NCBI GenBank assembly: GCA_001801515.1
Contig: MGXX01000022.1
Location: 1 to 7,842 of the forward strand
Direction of reading: 5' to 3'
Length of the DNA stretch: 7,842 nt
Source: Gammaproteobacteria bacterium RIFCSPHIGHO2_12_FULL_38_11
GTDB lineage: Bacteria > Pseudomonadota > Gammaproteobacteria > Coxiellales > Coxiellaceae
The translations under genes and the position numbers were made by a program. Positions 108 to 7,705 of the stretch are shown here, in pieces (the first letter of the stretch is position 1; the number at the start of each line of letters is the position of its first letter). Below the pieces are notes generated by a model. That model worked only from the letters and a program-made list of their open reading frames with translations. It made no database searches and had not been told where the DNA came from.

Positions 108-3100
108 TTAAGAAGAGTGTGTTTGTTCTAATGCGATATTATTCGCAGGTTGTTCAACCACCACCACGCGCGCGTTTCCACCAAACACACCGGCACCAAA
201 CGGATTGCCAGGATTAAATCCCAAATTATCTGGATAACCCATCGCTTTTCGAACACCGTCAATTGCGCTAATTTGTGTGTCTAATGTTACATGACGTGCA
301 CGTTCGAGTTCGGTCGCCGCATCAATTTTTTTGGTTTCTAATCTAACCATTTGTTCACTACTTGGATCAGAATAAAGCGCGCCTATTTCTGCTTTTTTAA
401 CAGTGGCATTCGCCTTACCCAGTATGGTAATGCGTGCTGCTTCTGCTTCGGCAAGCAAAGTCATTCGTTTTGCTTCTAGCTCTGCAGAATTAAATTGCGC
501 CTGAGCAATTTGATTTGCTGCCTGTGCTTTAGCAATTTCGCGTGCCGTTTCTTTAAACACTTCTGTTTCTACGTTTAACCCCGCTGTTTTTTTCTCAAGT
601 TCTGCGCGTAATTGTGCGGTTTCAGCCTCCATTTTAATTTTGACGCGTAATTCTTCTTGCTCAGCTTGAATGGTTTTAATTTTTTCTTGTGCAACGCGTG
701 TATTTGATTCTGCTTGCACAACTTCCGCTGCCGATTTTGCTTTTTGTTGCGCCAATTGAAATTCCAAATCGGTTTGTTGTTTGGTAAGTCTGATTTTCAT
801 TTCTGCAGCGGCTACCCCAGCTAATTTTTCTGATTCAGAAATTGATTTAACTGATTCTGCTCGTGCATTGGCTTCTGCTATTCCAGCCGTTGCACGTGCG
901 GAAGCGATAGATTCCGCTGCTTGAATATCCGCCTTTGTTTGTGCTTGCGTAATCGCCATTTGTTTTTGGCGTTCGGCATCGAGCAGCTGTGACTGGTTAT
1001 CCACCTCTTGTTGTCGTAAAGCAATTTTAGCTTGTTCTAATTCAGAACGTGTTCTTTGCAGCTGCAACGATATTTCCATGGATTGTTTTGCAAATTCCGG
1101 ATCAATTTCCCAGCCTTGAATTTGAATCGAACCCAATTTAACCCCATATTTTGCCAATGATTCGCTCGTATGGGTTGTAAATTGATTTTCAATTTCCTCT
1201 TCTTCTTGTTCGGCATTTTTTTGTGTTTCAAAATCATCACAAGCATAACCAATTGGTAATCGCGATTTGCAAAGGTGTAAAATTTCCGCACGCGTTGTTG
1301 TTTCAATGTGGCCATGCAATAAATCATGTGATTTGAATTGCCTGATCGCTAATTCAGGATGTTCAATGCTGTAAGTCACTACAATATCCAAATGCGATCT
1401 GATGCCGTGAAGTGAGGTTACTTGTTGCCTTTCAATTTTCAGGGGATCCGCACTGATTTGAAAAAAACCTGAAAAACGCTCGTTTTTATTTACATCAACA
1501 GAGTGTTGACCTTGGCCCCAAATATGTAATTCACCATTAATATTGCCATAACCAACTTCGCCCACGCCGACTCTGAAGAAATGATAAGGTCCCAAATCAT
1601 ATTCTTTTTCAGATTTTTTCCTTGGGCCGTAAACTTCAAGTCTTTCAGCGCGAAAAGTGTAAATGCCATTTTCAACTTCTGCTTCTACGCCAAATTCAGT
1701 TGGAATCGGTGTGCCGGGCAATAAAATGGGGATGCCATTTTTTACCACCACACAACGTTCATCAGGCTTTAAATAAATACGATGCAAATCACCAAATTTA
1801 ACGTAGGATTCTGTCATCGAAATTTCTTGTATATATTTATTAGGTGATACAAATATTTGTGGATGTGGTGAAGGATTTAAAAAACAAAAAGCATTATTAA
1901 TTTTACATGCGCCAATATTGCCTGTTGTTAAATTGACAACACTTACTTTACCAATGCGTGGCACAATTAATTCCTGCGCGCCTTCTTGATTGATATTCAC
2001 AATACCTACCACAGTGTATCGAGGTTGATAAAAGTAATAAGGCACTTCATCTAATGTGGGCGGGAACATTTCAAATTTTCCTTTTTGACTGACAACCGCA
2101 ACCCATTCTGCTTCTGAAGGTTGAATACGGCAGACCTTTGCGCCATCTTCACCAACAGAATAATTGGCTTCTGATTTTGCAACAGTATCAACATAACGCC
2201 ACGGTGCACGCAGCGTAATGGGTTGATTTCCACTGTCTTCAAGGAAGCGAATATTGCCTAGATTATCTTGAATAACGACTAATTGATCGATACGTTTACT
2301 AAAAACAGTGACTTGATCAACGCTAGCTTCGATTGTTTTGTTGCTGAAAATTTTGCCATTAAAAGAAAAATATGCATTAGATAAGTGCACGGTATTTAAT
2401 TGTGGATTTTCTGCATCATATTCCCAAACAATTGGCTGAGCACTTGCGGAATCTTTAAAAATAATATATTCGCCCGCTTGCAAAGTAACAATAGAATAGC
2501 TTGATACAGCTTCCGTTGTTTTACTGATTGCTTGACCTAAGGTCGTGCAATTAATAAATTCAAATCCTTCACGTTTATTTAAAACATAAGGTTCTTGTTT
2601 GTGTGGTAATGCAAATGTGCCTTGTGTTGAACGAATAAGCGCTACGTGATTAATGGGTACAAATAAGATCGATAAATTTTTAATAATATCATCGCAAAAA
2701 GCATCTGTTTCTTTTGATGCAGCTAAAACAGAACTGGTTGTTTGACCGTTAAATTGCACAACTGCCTTACCCAAAAAAATATTAGCACCTTGAAGCATGT
2801 AACGACCAGGTAACATTTTCTCTGTTTTTTTTGTTTCGCGATTATAGCAAAAACCAACTTCATTTGAATTAATACGCGTGATAGTGCAATTATTTGGAAG
2901 TGCTAGATAATTGATATTTAAGTCATATTCTACCGTTCCATCCACCTGTGCCAATCCCATGTCGACAGTTTTAGGCGCTGGTTTTAATCCACGCCATAGT
3001 TGTACTTTCTTACCATCTGCTTTTCCATTATGATCGGAAACAACAGCGAATTTACCTTGCGCAATTCTCCATTTGGTTGGGTTCATAATGCTGGTATGCA

Positions 3101-3863
3101 ATTTGGGATTGGAATCCGCTGCAACCAACATCGCTTCTATTTCATCAAATGCAGGGTTAGCCGCGTGTGTGCGTAACCATGCTTCTTCTTTTTGCTGCGC
3201 GGTCGTTGTGATTTTAGAAACAGCTGACCCTTCTTCATCCGATGTAGATTGAAAAATGGCAGGGACATAAATGGGCAACGCATCAAATTTGGATGGGGTG
3301 ATTGTTTTTCCTAAAAAACTATCGAGTTTATTGTTTTGCGCAACTTGATCTGATAAACGACGCACAACATTCGCTTTAAATTTTCGAGAAAAAATGTCTT
3401 CTGGAATTTCAGTAACTGGAATTGAAGCGGAAAATTCAAGTTGCCCCATTTTGCCTAGCCGTTCTTTCCAAATTTCATGTTTTGGAAATTCTTCTCTTTC
3501 TATTAAATCTCGAGACCGCAACCATGCTTCATAAGATTCTTTTTCATCTTCGTTCATAGGGGGTTCACCGGGTTTATTGGGCTGCGGTGCAAATTTTGCG
3601 GAACCAACCACTGGAACAAATTTATTACCAAAGGCAACGTTGGAGTCATCTGTGGTGTTTTGTGCTGCTTGAAAGGGGTTAGTAGTAACGGGGTTGCTTC
3701 TTGCTTCTTCTTCACGTTGCCCATGCAGTACCAATGCCTGTTTATCGGCATTTGGATTTCGTTTTGTGCTACTTGCGGGTTCGGTGGATTGTTCCGAATA
3801 AATGCGGGTGTTTGGATCTAGTACTGTTACATCATCTTGACTGATTGTTGATGTTTTTCTCAT
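108..3863 (-). CDS. Giant SPFH/band 7 protein with vault-like (beta-repeat, SPFH, long coiled-coil) architecture
   Basis: A 1251-residue protein. The ATG at 3863 is preferred over the in-frame GTG at 3878 because a GGAGAA ribosome site lies between them. Residues 1 to about 100 are polar and low-complexity. About 100-260 is mixed charged helix. From about 260 to 760, beta-rich segments recur every 50-70 residues, often with a V-x-V-x5-G-x-x-x-x-L pattern and an LPGxY/LPGT turn (for example near 350, 465, 710). An SPFH domain follows at about 762-930: the opening GEVGYGNINGELHIWGQGQHSV, then RSHLDIVVTYSIEHPELAIRQF, and the closing KYGVKLGSIQIQGWEIDPEF. An acidic insert (QKNAEQEEEEIEN) interrupts it. 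About 930-1200 is Ala/Glu/Gln-rich coiled coil like the flotillin C-terminus, ending in a Gly/Phe/Asn tail. I see no signal peptide or membrane segment, so it is probably soluble or peripheral. SPFH proteins form rings and cages; vault-like assembly is inference. Gene specificity and partners are unknown. ygfZ lies 131 bp upstream on the same strand. Confidence 0.85.
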   Translation of the reverse strand: MRKTSTISQDDVTVLDPNTRIYSEQSTEPASSTKRNPNADKQALVLHGQREEEARSNPVTTNPFQAAQNTTDDSNVAFGNKFVPVVGSAKFAPQPNKPGEPPMNEDEKESYEAWLRSRDLIEREEFPKHEIWKERLGKMGQLEFSASIPVTEIPEDIFSRKFKANVVRRLSDQVAQNNKLDSFLGKTITPSKFDALPIYVPAIFQSTSDEEGSAVSKITTTAQQKEEAWLRTHAANPAFDEIEAMLVAADSNPKLHTSIMNPTKWRIAQGKFAVVSDHNGKADGKKVQLWRGLKPAPKTVDMGLAQVDGTVEYDLNINYLALPNNCTITRINSNEVGFCYNRETKKTEKMLPGRYMLQGANIFLGKAVVQFNGQTTSSVLAASKETDAFCDDIIKNLSILFVPINHVALIRSTQGTFALPHKQEPYVLNKREGFEFINCTTLGQAISKTTEAVSSYSIVTLQAGEYIIFKDSASAQPIVWEYDAENPQLNTVHLSNAYFSFNGKIFSNKTIEASVDQVTVFSKRIDQLVVIQDNLGNIRFLEDSGNQPITLRAPWRYVDTVAKSEANYSVGEDGAKVCRIQPSEAEWVAVVSQKGKFEMFPPTLDEVPYYFYQPRYTVVGIVNINQEGAQELIVPRIGKVSVVNLTTGNIGACKINNAFCFLNPSPHPQIFVSPNKYIQEISMTESYVKFGDLHRIYLKPDERCVVVKNGIPILLPGTPIPTEFGVEAEVENGIYTFRAERLEVYGPRKKSEKEYDLGPYHFFRVGVGEVGYGNINGELHIWGQGQHSVDVNKNERFSGFFQISADPLKIERQQVTSLHGIRSHLDIVVTYSIEHPELAIRQFKSHDLLHGHIETTTRAEILHLCKSRLPIGYACDDFETQKNAEQEEEEIENQFTTHTSESLAKYGVKLGSIQIQGWEIDPEFAKQSMEISLQLQRTRSELEQAKIALRQQEVDNQSQLLDAERQKQMAITQAQTKADIQAAESIASARATAGIAEANARAESVKSISESEKLAGVAAAEMKIRLTKQQTDLEFQLAQQKAKSAAEVVQAESNTRVAQEKIKTIQAEQEELRVKIKMEAETAQLRAELEKKTAGLNVETEVFKETAREIAKAQAANQIAQAQFNSAELEAKRMTLLAEAEAARITILGKANATVKKAEIGALYSDPSSEQMVRLETKKIDAATELERARHVTLDTQISAIDGVRKAMGYPDNLGFNPGNPFGAGVFGGNARVVVVEQPANNIALEQTHSS

Positions 3864-3868
3864 ATTGC

Positions 3869-3874
3869 TTCTCC
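3869..3874 (-). promoter_or_regulatory. Ribosome binding site of the SPFH gene (decides the start)
   Basis: On the minus strand GGAGAA sits 5 nt before the ATG at 3863. It falls inside the longer reading frame that opens with GTG at 3878, which argues that the ATG is the true start and that the first five codons of the longer frame are untranslated leader. Confidence 0.75.
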
Positions 3875-3950
3875 ACACTTGATTTTGGTTATTTCGTATC
3901 TGTTTCTTAACTTAGCAAGATTAACAAAACAAAGTGCAGCGATAATCTAG

Positions 3951-3993
3951 GTTACCGAGAAAAGATTGTTCTCATTAGGGAAACAATGGTAAC
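3951..3993 (-). terminator. Weak nested inverted repeat just after ygfZ, possible leaky terminator
   Basis: Immediately after the ygfZ stop codon, minus-strand RNA reads GTTACC then ATTGTT, an 11-nt loop, AACAAT, CTTTTCTC and GGTAAC. The inner arms (3965-3970 with 3982-3987) form a 6-bp AT-rich stem followed by CTTTTCT. The outer arms (3951-3956 with 3988-3993) are complementary as well. The stem is weak for an intrinsic terminator, so ygfZ transcripts may read through into the SPFH gene. It could also be chance or an operator upstream of the SPFH gene. Confidence 0.25.
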
Positions 3994-4650
3994 TCACTGA
4001 TCTTGCATGACTGCCAGCACATCATAATTATTTTCTGTAATATTAGCGGCTTCAACGATTACGCCATTTTCAATTTCCCAGCCAGGATGTAAAGGGTGAT
4101 CGCTTTGAATTTGCAATCGATGTAAATGTTTTTTTAATTTTCCGAGATGTTGTGTGCGCGCCACAATTTCTTGTCCGACATAACAGCCTTTTGTAAAAGA
4201 AACACCCCCTAATTTTTCTAAATTAATCATCTGTGGTGTGAATAAAAGACTTGTTTTATCGCACAATATTGCTATGCCATTTTTAATTCTCTGTTTGCAA
4301 TCGGGTATCATGATGTTTTTATCTACTATTTTTATAGTATTTTCATCATCAGATTCTGTCATAAAAAAATCATTTTCTTCTGAAATAGTAACTTTCGAAA
4401 ACACGGCATATTTTTTTAAATGATCAGAAACGAGGGTTGATAAACTTTTCGATAAAATACATAAAAAATTATTGTGCCAATTCACCACCCAAAAATTAGC
4501 AATCATTCGTCCGCGATGATCGCAAACAGCTGCCAGCGAAGCTTGTCCGTGCTCGGACAATAAAGTCATATCGCAAGTCAATTGCCCTTGTAAAAAAAGT
4601 TGTACGTTAACGCCTGAGAATTTGAGTATCGAAAAGGTGTTTTTTGGCAT
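3994..4650 (-). CDS. ygfZ: YgfZ-like folate-binding Fe-S cluster maintenance protein (short form)
   Basis: A 218-residue member of the YgfZ/GcvT-like family, cytosolic proteins that bind tetrahydrofolate and help keep certain Fe-S enzymes (for example MiaB) active. The family signature KGCYVGQE is at residues 154-161, with the conserved Cys at 156. LKKYAVFSKVTI at 78-89 matches the E. coli protein block, and FLQGQLTCDM at 19-28 matches its QGQVTADV region. E. coli YgfZ is 326 residues. Here the middle segment between KVTI and the signature is about 65 residues against well over 100, and the C-terminal barrel stops about 60 residues after the signature, at VMQDQ. No Shine-Dalgarno is visible before the ATG, but the start fits the family. 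It is divergent from the MFS gene and upstream of the SPFH gene on the same strand. Family assignment is firm; full activity of the short form is not proven. Confidence 0.9.
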   Translation of the reverse strand: MPKNTFSILKFSGVNVQLFLQGQLTCDMTLLSEHGQASLAAVCDHRGRMIANFWVVNWHNNFLCILSKSLSTLVSDHLKKYAVFSKVTISEENDFFMTESDDENTIKIVDKNIMIPDCKQRIKNGIAILCDKTSLLFTPQMINLEKLGGVSFTKGCYVGQEIVARTQHLGKLKKHLHRLQIQSDHPLHPGWEIENGVIVEAANITENNYDVLAVMQDQ

Positions 4651-4770: not shown

Positions 4771-4795
4771 TGAATTTTTCAACCCGGGTTTGATT

Positions 4796-6037
4796 ATGGT
4801 AGCCTTTAAAAAAGCACGCAGACATCGTATGCGAATTGCATGGTCCATTTGGATCGTTGCTGCCATATTTGTTTTATTTCAATTTTTTCTACAGTTATCG
4901 TCGGGTGAGATTATTGCAGGTTTAATGAAGAGTTTTGCGTTAACGGAGTTTGGCGGTGGATTGTTGGCGAGCAGTTATTATTATATTTACGTTTTATTGC
5001 AAATACCTGCTGGTATGTTGATGGATCGTTATGGCCCTCGCCTTATTTTAAGCTTAGGCGCCATGCTGGTTTGTTTGGGCTGTCTTGTATTTCACGGTGC
5101 GAAAATAGTGCCGTTTGCTTTATTGGGCAGAATATTAATGGGGACGGGTTCAGCTTTTGCGTTTGTGGGTTGCCTAAATGTAATTTCCATCTGGTTTCCC
5201 AGAAGGCGATTTGCACTGATGGCTGCTATTGTTGAAACTGCTGGAATGGTTGGTGCAATTGTCGGTAATTATTGGCTTGCAGGTTATATCGAACGCGCTG
5301 GTTGGCGTAGCGCACTTTTTATAGCGGCTGTTTTTGCAGGCATTTTGTCACTGTTTTTATTTATATTGGTGCGTAATACGCCGCGTCGAAAAAAACCTTC
5401 TGTCATCGTTGTTGCAAAAAAATATTTAATAGCTGGCTTAAAACAATTAATACGAAATCCATTCATTTGGATCAACGGTATTTATTCGGGCATTATGTTT
5501 AGCATTGTGACGGTGTTTATCGCGTTGTGGGCAATTCCTTTTTTTGAATTATCACACCACATTGATTTGGTTTTGGCAACGCTGGTTACGTCAGCCCTTT
5601 ATATGGGGGTTGCTATAGGGGGTCCTATTTTGGGTTGGTTGGATGGACGTACATTGTGGCGTCGAAATATTATGATTATTAATGCATTTTGCGCATCGCT
5701 TTTTTTATTTTTAGCAATTTATTCTGTTCATGAATCATTATTAACAATCGCCTTGTTTTTATTTTTGGCGGGTATTTGTGCGAGTAGCTATGTCTTAACT
5801 TTTGCGACTGCCAATGATATTGCAACGCCTTCCAATAGAGCAACAAGCATTGGTTTTACAAATATGTTGTGTGTGATATTAGCGCCAATTTTACAGCCAC
5901 TGATTGGATTTTTAATTACTTATTTTGATCACGCGCATACCCATTTGATTTTGCATTTTCAATGGGCGGTGTCGCTGATACCTATTTTATCACTTGTGGC
6001 AGGCATACTAGCGTTTTACTTGCCCAATCGAAAATAA
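4796..6037 (+). CDS. Major facilitator superfamily (MFS) transporter, substrate unknown
   Basis: A 413-residue inner-membrane secondary carrier, the usual MFS size, with hydrophobic segments consistent with 12 TM helices. The basic N-terminus (KKARRHRMR) precedes TM1 (about 15-33). Between TM2 and TM3 is the MFS motif A equivalent GMLMDRYGPR (73-82). GRILMGTGSAFA (111-122) is the TM4 motif and ETAGMVGAIVGN (147-158) is the TM5 motif. A basic central loop (RNTPRRKK, about 195-202) separates the two six-helix halves, and GWLDGRTLWRR is the motif A echo in the second half. The family covers sugars, amino acids, organic acids and drug efflux, and nothing here fixes the substrate. ATG 4796 is chosen; an in-frame TTG at 4790 would add two residues, and neither has a clear ribosome site. 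The gene is transcribed alone, away from ygfZ, and stops at a strong terminator. Confidence 0.9.
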   Translation: MVAFKKARRHRMRIAWSIWIVAAIFVLFQFFLQLSSGEIIAGLMKSFALTEFGGGLLASSYYYIYVLLQIPAGMLMDRYGPRLILSLGAMLVCLGCLVFHGAKIVPFALLGRILMGTGSAFAFVGCLNVISIWFPRRRFALMAAIVETAGMVGAIVGNYWLAGYIERAGWRSALFIAAVFAGILSLFLFILVRNTPRRKKPSVIVVAKKYLIAGLKQLIRNPFIWINGIYSGIMFSIVTVFIALWAIPFFELSHHIDLVLATLVTSALYMGVAIGGPILGWLDGRTLWRRNIMIINAFCASLFLFLAIYSVHESLLTIALFLFLAGICASSYVLTFATANDIATPSNRATSIGFTNMLCVILAPILQPLIGFLITYFDHAHTHLILHFQWAVSLIPILSLVAGILAFYLPNRK

Positions 6038-6069
6038 AAAATCCAGCGAGGGGAGTCGCTGGATTTTTT
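6036..6069. terminator. Bidirectional rho-independent terminator
   Basis: A 14-bp perfect stem (6036-6049 with 6056-6069, core ATCCAGCGA/TCGCTGGAT) closes on a 6-nt loop GGGGAG. An A-run on one side and a T-run on the other give a U-tract in both directions. It begins inside the MFS stop codon and lies 10 bp from the stop of the convergent small gene, so it should end both transcripts. Confidence 0.92.
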
Positions 6070-6079
6070 GATTTTAATA

Positions 6080-6298
6080 TTACTTGTTCGGGTTATTCCA
6101 TCCTTGTTTCGGATTGGGTTGAGGTTGACCGTGCTTAGGTTGAGGCTGTCCATGTTGCGGACGATTGGGTTGTTGTGGATTATTTGGATTTCTGTGTTGA
6201 TCAGCTCCTTGAGCCTGGCGTTCTTGCTGACGGCCAGTGTTGTTTGGATTTGCATTTGCTTGAGGGCGTTGTTCATTGCGATTGTTGTCTTTTGACAT
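6080..6298 (-). CDS. Small Asn/Gln/Pro-rich, probably disordered protein
   Basis: A 72-residue hydrophilic protein that I do not recognise. Composition is dominated by N, Q, P, R, G and H with almost no hydrophobic residues and a single Trp near the end (GWNNPNK), so an unfolded chain is expected. It has no signal peptide, no TM segment and no Cys. A seven-residue tandem repeat HGQPQPK/HGQPQPN (6154-6113) reflects a 21-nt DNA duplication. The start at 6298 is supported by AGGAGA 6 nt upstream; a longer frame from TTG 6367 would prepend a T-rich, hydrophobic stretch with no ribosome site. A sigma-70-like promoter about 40 bp upstream and the shared terminator give it a complete single-gene transcription unit, which argues that it is real. 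Function is unknown; RNA or nucleic-acid binding or a stress role would be guesses. Confidence 0.7.
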   Translation of the reverse strand: MSKDNNRNEQRPQANANPNNTGRQQERQAQGADQHRNPNNPQQPNRPQHGQPQPKHGQPQPNPKQGWNNPNK

Positions 6299-6523: not shown

Positions 6524-7705
6524 CTAACTATTGAAAGCCGCAACAATAAACCCTTTTAAATAATTGGTTTCTGTTATGGCGGGATGAACGGGGTGGTCTG
6601 AGGCTTGATGACATTGCTCTAAAACAGAAATTTCTTTTTGGGTGTTTATTGCTGCCTTACGAATGACATTTAATAAATCAGTTGCCGCTAAATGCATGGA
6701 ACAGGATGCAGAAAATAAAATGCCGTTGGACTTTAATAATTGCAATGCGGCCTCATTTAATTTTTGATACATTTTCGCGCCTGCAGAAGCCTCTTTTTTG
6801 CGTTTGATTAATGCCGGCGGGTCTAAAATAATTACGTCGAATAATTCCTTTTTTGCCACTAATGTTTTCATTGATTCTAATGCATCACCGCAACACGTTT
6901 TAATATTATTGAGCGAATTTAATGTTGTATTTTCATTTAATATATCGAGTGCGGGTTGTGAACGATCAATTGCAGTGACTTCACGTGCAACTTTGGCCGC
7001 GGGCAAGGTAAATCCACCGCAATATGAAAATACATCTAATACTTTTTTATCTTTGCAGTAAGTAGCTACCCGTGCGCGATTTAAGCGATGATCAAAAAAC
7101 CAACCGGTTTTTTGCCCGCTTAATAATGAAACGCGATAAACACAATTATTTTCTTTAATCTCGATTTGTTCGGGTGTTGCTCCGTGCGCTATTTCAGTAT
7201 AATTTTCTAACCCTTCATTTTTACGTTCCGAACTATCGCATTTTAATACAACACAAGTTGGATTAAATACTATTTTGATCGCGTCAATTAAATAGGGTTT
7301 CAAATTTTCCATACCAGCAGTGTTAATTTGTGCGACGATGATATTATTAAAGCGGTCAATGACAATGCCAGGTAAACGATCACTCTCGCCAAAGACAGCG
7401 CGATAATAATGATCAGTAAAAAGGGTTTCGCGTTTTAGTATCGCCATTTTTATTTTAGCAACAAAAAATTCGGTGTCAATTTTAGTCTGAATATCAAGCG
7501 ACAAAATGCGAATGCATAATAGGCAGTGTGGATTAATATAACCAATGGCGATAGATTTTTTAAATGATGTTTCAATAATAATTAATTCACCAGCAGAATA
7601 ATTTTTTAAAGGGGAAAGGGCAGTATCAATATCATTGCTGAAAATCCACAAATGGCCTGCTTTGATACGACGCTCGGCGTCTTTTTTTAGAGAGAGAATT
7701 TTCAT
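6524..7705 (-). CDS. rlmI: 23S rRNA (cytosine-1962-C5)-methyltransferase RlmI
   Basis: A 393-residue class I SAM-dependent RNA methyltransferase, close to the 396 residues of E. coli RlmI, which makes m5C1962 in 23S rRNA. Residues 1 to about 75 form the PUA RNA-binding domain (KAGHLWIFSNDI, matching RRHPWVFSGAV). GESDRLPGIVIDRF (near 106-119) and SGQKTGWFFDHRLNR (near 196-210) are the family's central EEHEE-domain blocks. SAM binding is at VLDVFSYCGGFTLPAA (from about 221), with acidic VTAIDRS following. LDPPAL (near 292) is motif IV, and SASCSMHL (near 332) holds the candidate catalytic Cys. The C-terminal ASDHPVHP and YLKGF blocks are also conserved. The protein looks complete. No Shine-Dalgarno precedes the ATG at 7705. 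The gene stands alone, with about 140 bp of gene-free AT-rich DNA downstream and hairpin repeats upstream. RlmI is preferred over RlmK/L or other YccW-like paralogues because of full-length collinearity. Confidence 0.93.
   Translation of the reverse strand: MKILSLKKDAERRIKAGHLWIFSNDIDTALSPLKNYSAGELIIIETSFKKSIAIGYINPHCLLCIRILSLDIQTKIDTEFFVAKIKMAILKRETLFTDHYYRAVFGESDRLPGIVIDRFNNIIVAQINTAGMENLKPYLIDAIKIVFNPTCVVLKCDSSERKNEGLENYTEIAHGATPEQIEIKENNCVYRVSLLSGQKTGWFFDHRLNRARVATYCKDKKVLDVFSYCGGFTLPAAKVAREVTAIDRSQPALDILNENTTLNSLNNIKTCCGDALESMKTLVAKKELFDVIILDPPALIKRKKEASAGAKMYQKLNEAALQLLKSNGILFSASCSMHLAATDLLNVIRKAAINTQKEISVLEQCHQASDHPVHPAITETNYLKGFIVAAFNS

Follow-up and report, generated by a model that had tools for sequence, protein, structure and literature searches.

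A bacterial SPFH-domain protein with a vault-like order of domains

The stretch of DNA analyzed here (the window, 7,842 nucleotides) is contig MGXX01000022.1 of Gammaproteobacteria bacterium RIFCSPHIGHO2_12_FULL_38_11. It carries, on its minus strand, a gene for a 1251-residue protein (P0001) in which beta repeats, an SPFH domain and a long helix follow one another as they do in the major vault protein (MVP). According to passages in PMC13347060 and PMC13100048, nine beta repeat domains make up the barrel body of the vault, the SPFH shoulder serves as its hinge and helices form its cap, and the two halves of the particle are joined at the waist by R1 domains. A preliminary description, made from the letters of the window, had likened P0001 to a vault subunit. 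Our analyses suggest that this bacterial protein is, on balance, the building block of an SPFH cage that is soluble and vault-like; as far as architecture and predicted fold are concerned, the vault analogy appears to be the best-supported reading.

Domain layout and family

The gene and its parts are listed below, with residue numbers for P0001.

108..3878, minus strand: one long open reading frame, from the listing of such frames
108..3863, minus strand: coding sequence of the vault-like SPFH protein, 1251 residues (stop codon 108-110, ATG at 3863)
3871..3874, minus strand: Shine-Dalgarno-like GGAG, 7 nucleotides before the ATG, read from the sequence
3099..3863, minus strand: N-terminal extension, residues 1-255, a variable start and then invariant positions
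2901..3098, minus strand: repeat R1, residues 256-321, motif RIPxxxFxVVSDHNG, low model confidence
2694..2900, minus strand: repeat R2, residues 322-390, from alignment and model
2511..2693, minus strand: repeat R3, residues 391-451, from alignment and model
2328..2510, minus strand: repeat R4, residues 452-512, low model confidence
2160..2327, minus strand: repeat R5, residues 513-568, from alignment and model
1992..2159, minus strand: repeat R6, residues 569-624, from alignment and model
1803..1991, minus strand: repeat R7, residues 625-687, from alignment and model
1602..1802, minus strand: repeat R8, residues 688-754, from alignment and model
1449..1601, minus strand: repeat R9, residues 755-805, running directly into the SPFH domain
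1008..1454, minus strand: SPFH/Band_7 domain, residues 804-952 (Pfam), globular part ~806-921, equivalent of the shoulder
369..1100, minus strand: predicted long Ala-rich helix or coiled coil, ~922-1165, ~240 residues, equivalent of the cap helix
111..368, minus strand: C-terminal tail, residues 1166-1251, Gly-rich in P0001 and poorly conserved

P0001 belongs to a rare, uncharacterized family. A word-based search of ~5.8 billion proteins returned five members, P0001's cluster included, out of the 7995 candidates with most words in common, which were the ones scored, and a search of ~5.8 billion proteins with a repeat and SPFH profile returned eight (the earlier five and three more) among 7159 candidates. 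The other seven members are 31-72% identical to P0001. All eight can be aligned across the extension, the nine repeat blocks and the beginning of the SPFH domain, and seven of them across the helix; statistics on helix and tail are based on seven members because P0128 (931 residues) ends inside the SPFH domain. Mean pairwise identity is highest in the repeat and SPFH blocks (36-52%), with R9 the most conserved block (52%), and is 34% in the helix, 32% in residues 105-255 and 26% in the first 104 residues. The Gly-rich tail noted in the preliminary description is present in P0001 and is not conserved in the family (18%). An H(T/C)(L/I/M)-type motif follows the helix in P0002, P0003, P0004, P0126 and P0127, and P0001 has a 14-column gap there. 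Two pattern scans of genome contigs, made from one and from five sequences (more distant members could escape them), found no relative; scans of viral contigs with family patterns confirmed no sequence relative, and searches of plasmid and phage sequences gave no match. Among the papers listed, judged by title and abstract opening, none has such a family as its subject.

The preliminary description had counted eight or nine beta-rich segments at residues ~260-760. There are nine beta units, at ~256-805, each of 51-69 residues in P0001, with boundaries set by hand from the alignment and the predicted model. By eye they have in common one strand, a turn resembling P-x-E, a pair of strands with a G turn, and one more strand; strands are predicted in each of them, with low confidence in R1 and R4. 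These units resemble one another beyond shuffled controls: compared with hhalign as non-overlapping segments, they had a mean score of 13.4 (36 pairs, not independent of each other) against 9.6 for 144 column-shuffled pairs, 13 of the 36 lay above the 95th percentile of the shuffles, and the top real pair scored 22.4 against 19.9 for the top shuffle.

The SPFH domain that had been read after the repeats is the sole Pfam match of P0001 (Band_7, E 3.6e-7, 30.8 bits, cut-off 23.6). With Band_7 above its curated cut-off and a predicted helix after it, the protein is placed in the SPFH/Band_7 superfamily; Band_7 was found at E<=10 in only three of the eight members, and the family consensus scored 48.7 bits. 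The coiled coil, earlier put at about 250 residues, corresponds to the predicted helix, placed by the model at about 922-1163 with low confidence beyond its first part. That no membrane anchor is evident also holds, for hydrophobic segments, across the family: none of the eight members has a strong transmembrane (TM) segment, the maximal 19-residue Kyte-Doolittle mean being 1.42 in P0001 and 1.61 in the highest-scoring of the eight, the latter within a beta repeat. A search of NCBIfam with P0001 gave no match. One feature absent from the preliminary description is the 255-residue extension, in which D72, D73, Y111, W114, R123, F126, H129, W132 and L136 are invariant in all eight members and helices are predicted from residue 105 onward, the confidence being low to moderate.

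Predicted fold and relation to the major vault protein

Structures were predicted for the monomer, as the preliminary description had proposed, in a repeat-only model lacking the SPFH domain and in a longer one. All 13 PDB matches of the repeat-only model at E<=0.001 were MVP, and its best non-MVP match had E 2.4e-3 and probability 0.15. The 12 best PDB matches of the longer model were likewise MVP, over 855-1004 columns, with a best E of 7.7e-14. In the model without the SPFH domain, R2-R3 and R6-R9 mostly have predicted local distance difference test (pLDDT) values of 70-91. A beta-propeller for residues 256-805 was rejected as the leading idea, as propeller-containing entries ranked behind MVP, from E 2.6e-3 and with probability <=0.33. 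These were IFT-A 8hmc (E 2.6e-3) and BAM chain 9co0_B (E 8.4e-3), both of which we take to contain propellers, and Gemin5 (E 0.016).

When the longer model was searched against BFVD, the top match was a Harvfovirus "prohibitin domain-containing protein", A0A3G5A4K1 (802 residues, E 8.1e-25, 769 columns); Harvfovirus A0A3G5A5B7 (E 1.6e-15) and Bodo saltans virus A0A2H4UTE5 (E 1.7e-13) were also matched. The viral and MVP E-values come from different libraries, and their comparison is not strict. A0A3G5A4K1 is a giant virus protein and its likeness to the family is by structure match only; on these models, more vault-like SPFH proteins may exist in giant viruses.

The preliminary description had found the repeats not clearly related to MVP in sequence, and this assessment stands. 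The MVP Pfam models PF01505, PF17794, PF17795, PF17796 and PF11978 did not match the consensus body, nor any of the eight members at E<=10, a setting at which the HMMER filters drop most matches above E ~0.1; all five matched human MVP, the positive control. In profile comparison with MVP (12 sequences, tetrapods only), the eight-sequence profile with its coiled coil removed did not score above shuffles over the body. The probability over the shoulder was 90.5 with five sequences and 41.9 with a cut alignment, and with eight sequences the best match was the coiled coil. A five-member profile run against PDB sequences matched MVP over the coiled coil only (E 0.42-3.3). Because the scores shift with the alignment cut and the body stays within its shuffled controls, sequence proof of MVP homology was not counted. 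Assignment of the family to MVP by sequence models failed, and that the protein is an MVP is not established.

Comparison of the individual repeats with MVP repeat profiles (hhalign, 81 pairs), another proposed check, gave no more than a hint. The mean score was 11.1 against 9.6 for 324 shuffles, a shift that is not specific because shuffling destroys any beta pattern too, and six of the 81 pairs lay above the 95th percentile of the shuffles, with ~4 expected. The top pair was R1-R1, in which RIPxxxFxVVSDHNG faces RIPPYHYIHVLDQN of MVP R1. With overlapping segments this pair scored 20.0, and the controls reached at most 16.8 when shuffled (243) and 19.1 when reversed (81). Overlap inflates neighboring repeat pairs, hence the comparison was rerun without it; the pair then scored 20.6, below the maximum of 21.0 reached by one of the 324 shuffles. 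The likeness of R1 to MVP R1 is a hint that does not go beyond chance.

Among known systems, MVP (rat 4hl8, human 9bw5, rabbit 9z4w) is alike in its nine N-terminal beta domains, SPFH shoulder, long Ala-rich helix, short tail and lack of a TM segment, and it is the best PDB match of both models. It differs in having no 255-residue extension (in the part of PMC13347060 that describes it, tracing of the MVP model begins at residue 3, within R1) and in its helix, given there as residues 647-814 of the human protein, against ~240 residues in P0001; the family gene, in turn, is bacterial and lacks an MVP Pfam match or a significant sequence relationship. HflK/HflC, QmcA, stomatin, prohibitin and erlin have a long helix after the SPFH domain but no nine-domain beta body. 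Flotillins 1 and 2 also combine an SPFH domain with a long helix and match the family weakly in sequence (E 0.012), a match confined to the coiled coil. They differ in having no beta-repeat body and, according to passages in PMC13100048, in being membrane-bound via hydrophobic and lipid-modified residues.

A proposed vault-like cage and alternative readings

The vault-like order of the parts, with no membrane anchor in evidence, is best accounted for by a soluble cage whose wall is stave-like. In such a cage, the SPFH domains and Ala-rich cap helices would pack laterally to give a ring and a cap, an arrangement known from SPFH cages of solved structure, and the nine beta domains would form a stave that lengthens the wall below the shoulder. 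Half-cages of MVP are 39-fold and are joined at the N-terminal rim. If a vault-like cage order is assumed, the 255-residue extension would lie at this rim and could either join two half-cages rim to rim or plug the opening. A likely role for the particle, by analogy with known cages, would be enclosing or sequestering macromolecules.

What stands of the vault-subunit proposal is the layout and the MVP-like fold predicted for the repeats. Several observations weigh against it: the models are of mediocre quality (pLDDT 58 and 71), the template-modelling scores (TM-scores) of the MVP matches are low for both, VIA Z values for the repeats are 4.9-6.2, and the Pfam and profile comparisons described above give MVP no significant sequence relationship. 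The same weaknesses could mean that the beta segments fold otherwise and that the MVP matches are artefactual, a product of modelling a beta-rich repeat protein with low confidence, since the alignments hold only eight sequences, R1 and R4 are poorly modelled and the sequence offers MVP no support. The pLDDT of 70-91 over most of R2-R3 and R6-R9, together with the restriction of matches at E<=0.001 to MVP, makes such an artefact distinctly improbable.

The protein might, alternatively, build a half-cage docked at the membrane, with the beta domains as a spacer and the extension binding the membrane peripherally or via a partner, like flotillin or HflK/C-type scaffolds. This is rather unlikely: none of the eight members has a strong hydrophobic segment (a check that covered hydrophobic segments, not lipid or amphipathic anchors), and at E<=0.001 the repeat-only model has no match other than MVP. 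In addition, the anchoring motifs of known membrane SPFH proteins, as passages in PMC13100048 describe them, sit upstream of the SPFH domain, a place taken by the beta repeats in this family. It is also unlikely that we are dealing with a true MVP, shared with or acquired from eukaryotes and diverged past sequence recognition. The predicted fold and the domain order are as in MVP, the R1 motif RIPxxxFxVVxDxN resembles MVP R1 by eye, and a 2021 vault review reports putative bacterial MVP homologues of unresolved origin (PMC7916137, section 6). Set against this are the lack of MVP Pfam and significant profile matches, the additional extension, the longer helix, and the third-position GC of the gene, which at 0.276 is close to that of its neighbors (0.297-0.346) and so gives no sign of recent transfer.

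With its vault-like order of parts and no evident anchor, the protein would offer a bacterial setting for a particle of still-unknown function and would touch on a possible prokaryotic beginning of vaults, a question that the same review leaves unresolved (PMC7916137, section 6). More tentatively, a bacterial lineage outside MVP could build closed vault-type barrels, with nine-domain staves, an SPFH shoulder, a longer cap and an extension lining or sealing the waist; we regard this as possible and somewhat doubtful. If true, the vault design would extend beyond MVP, and the purpose of vaults could be studied in a bacterial system.

Neighboring genes and the contig edge

The genes around the vault-like SPFH gene look to be of ordinary bacterial type.

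3994-4650, minus strand: short YgfZ-like gene, upstream of the vault-like SPFH gene
4790-6037, plus strand: MFS transporter gene
6080-6298, minus strand: small hydrophilic open reading frame, 72 residues, ATG preceded by AAGGAG
6524-7705, minus strand: RlmI-like rRNA methyltransferase gene

The YgfZ-like protein (218 residues) matched PRK09559, a 327-position model, in two pieces with 113.3 bits, under the cut-off of 219, and passed the cut-off of 49 for CAF17_like_YgfZ with 87.3 bits. No match to the RlmI-like gene came from a search of E. coli genomes. The 72-residue frame has a very high content of Pro, Gln and Asn, and family searches with it returned no convincing match. A hairpin of 15 pairs spanning 6035-6070 was called as terminator-like for each strand (a class of site not above shuffles) and may be a terminator common to this frame and the MFS gene. 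Rfam gave no match in the whole window at the gathering threshold or in 3600-4400 at E<=0.1.

Directly past the stop codon of the vault-like SPFH gene, in positions 1-102, a ~46-bp unit occurs twice at a spacing of 55-56 bp and runs to the window edge. A single exact 17-mer from this region was found in viral contigs, at or below chance expectation. The two copies are identical over a 21-nucleotide part and 92% identical over a 25-nucleotide part, and the repeat is possibly the site where the contig breaks.
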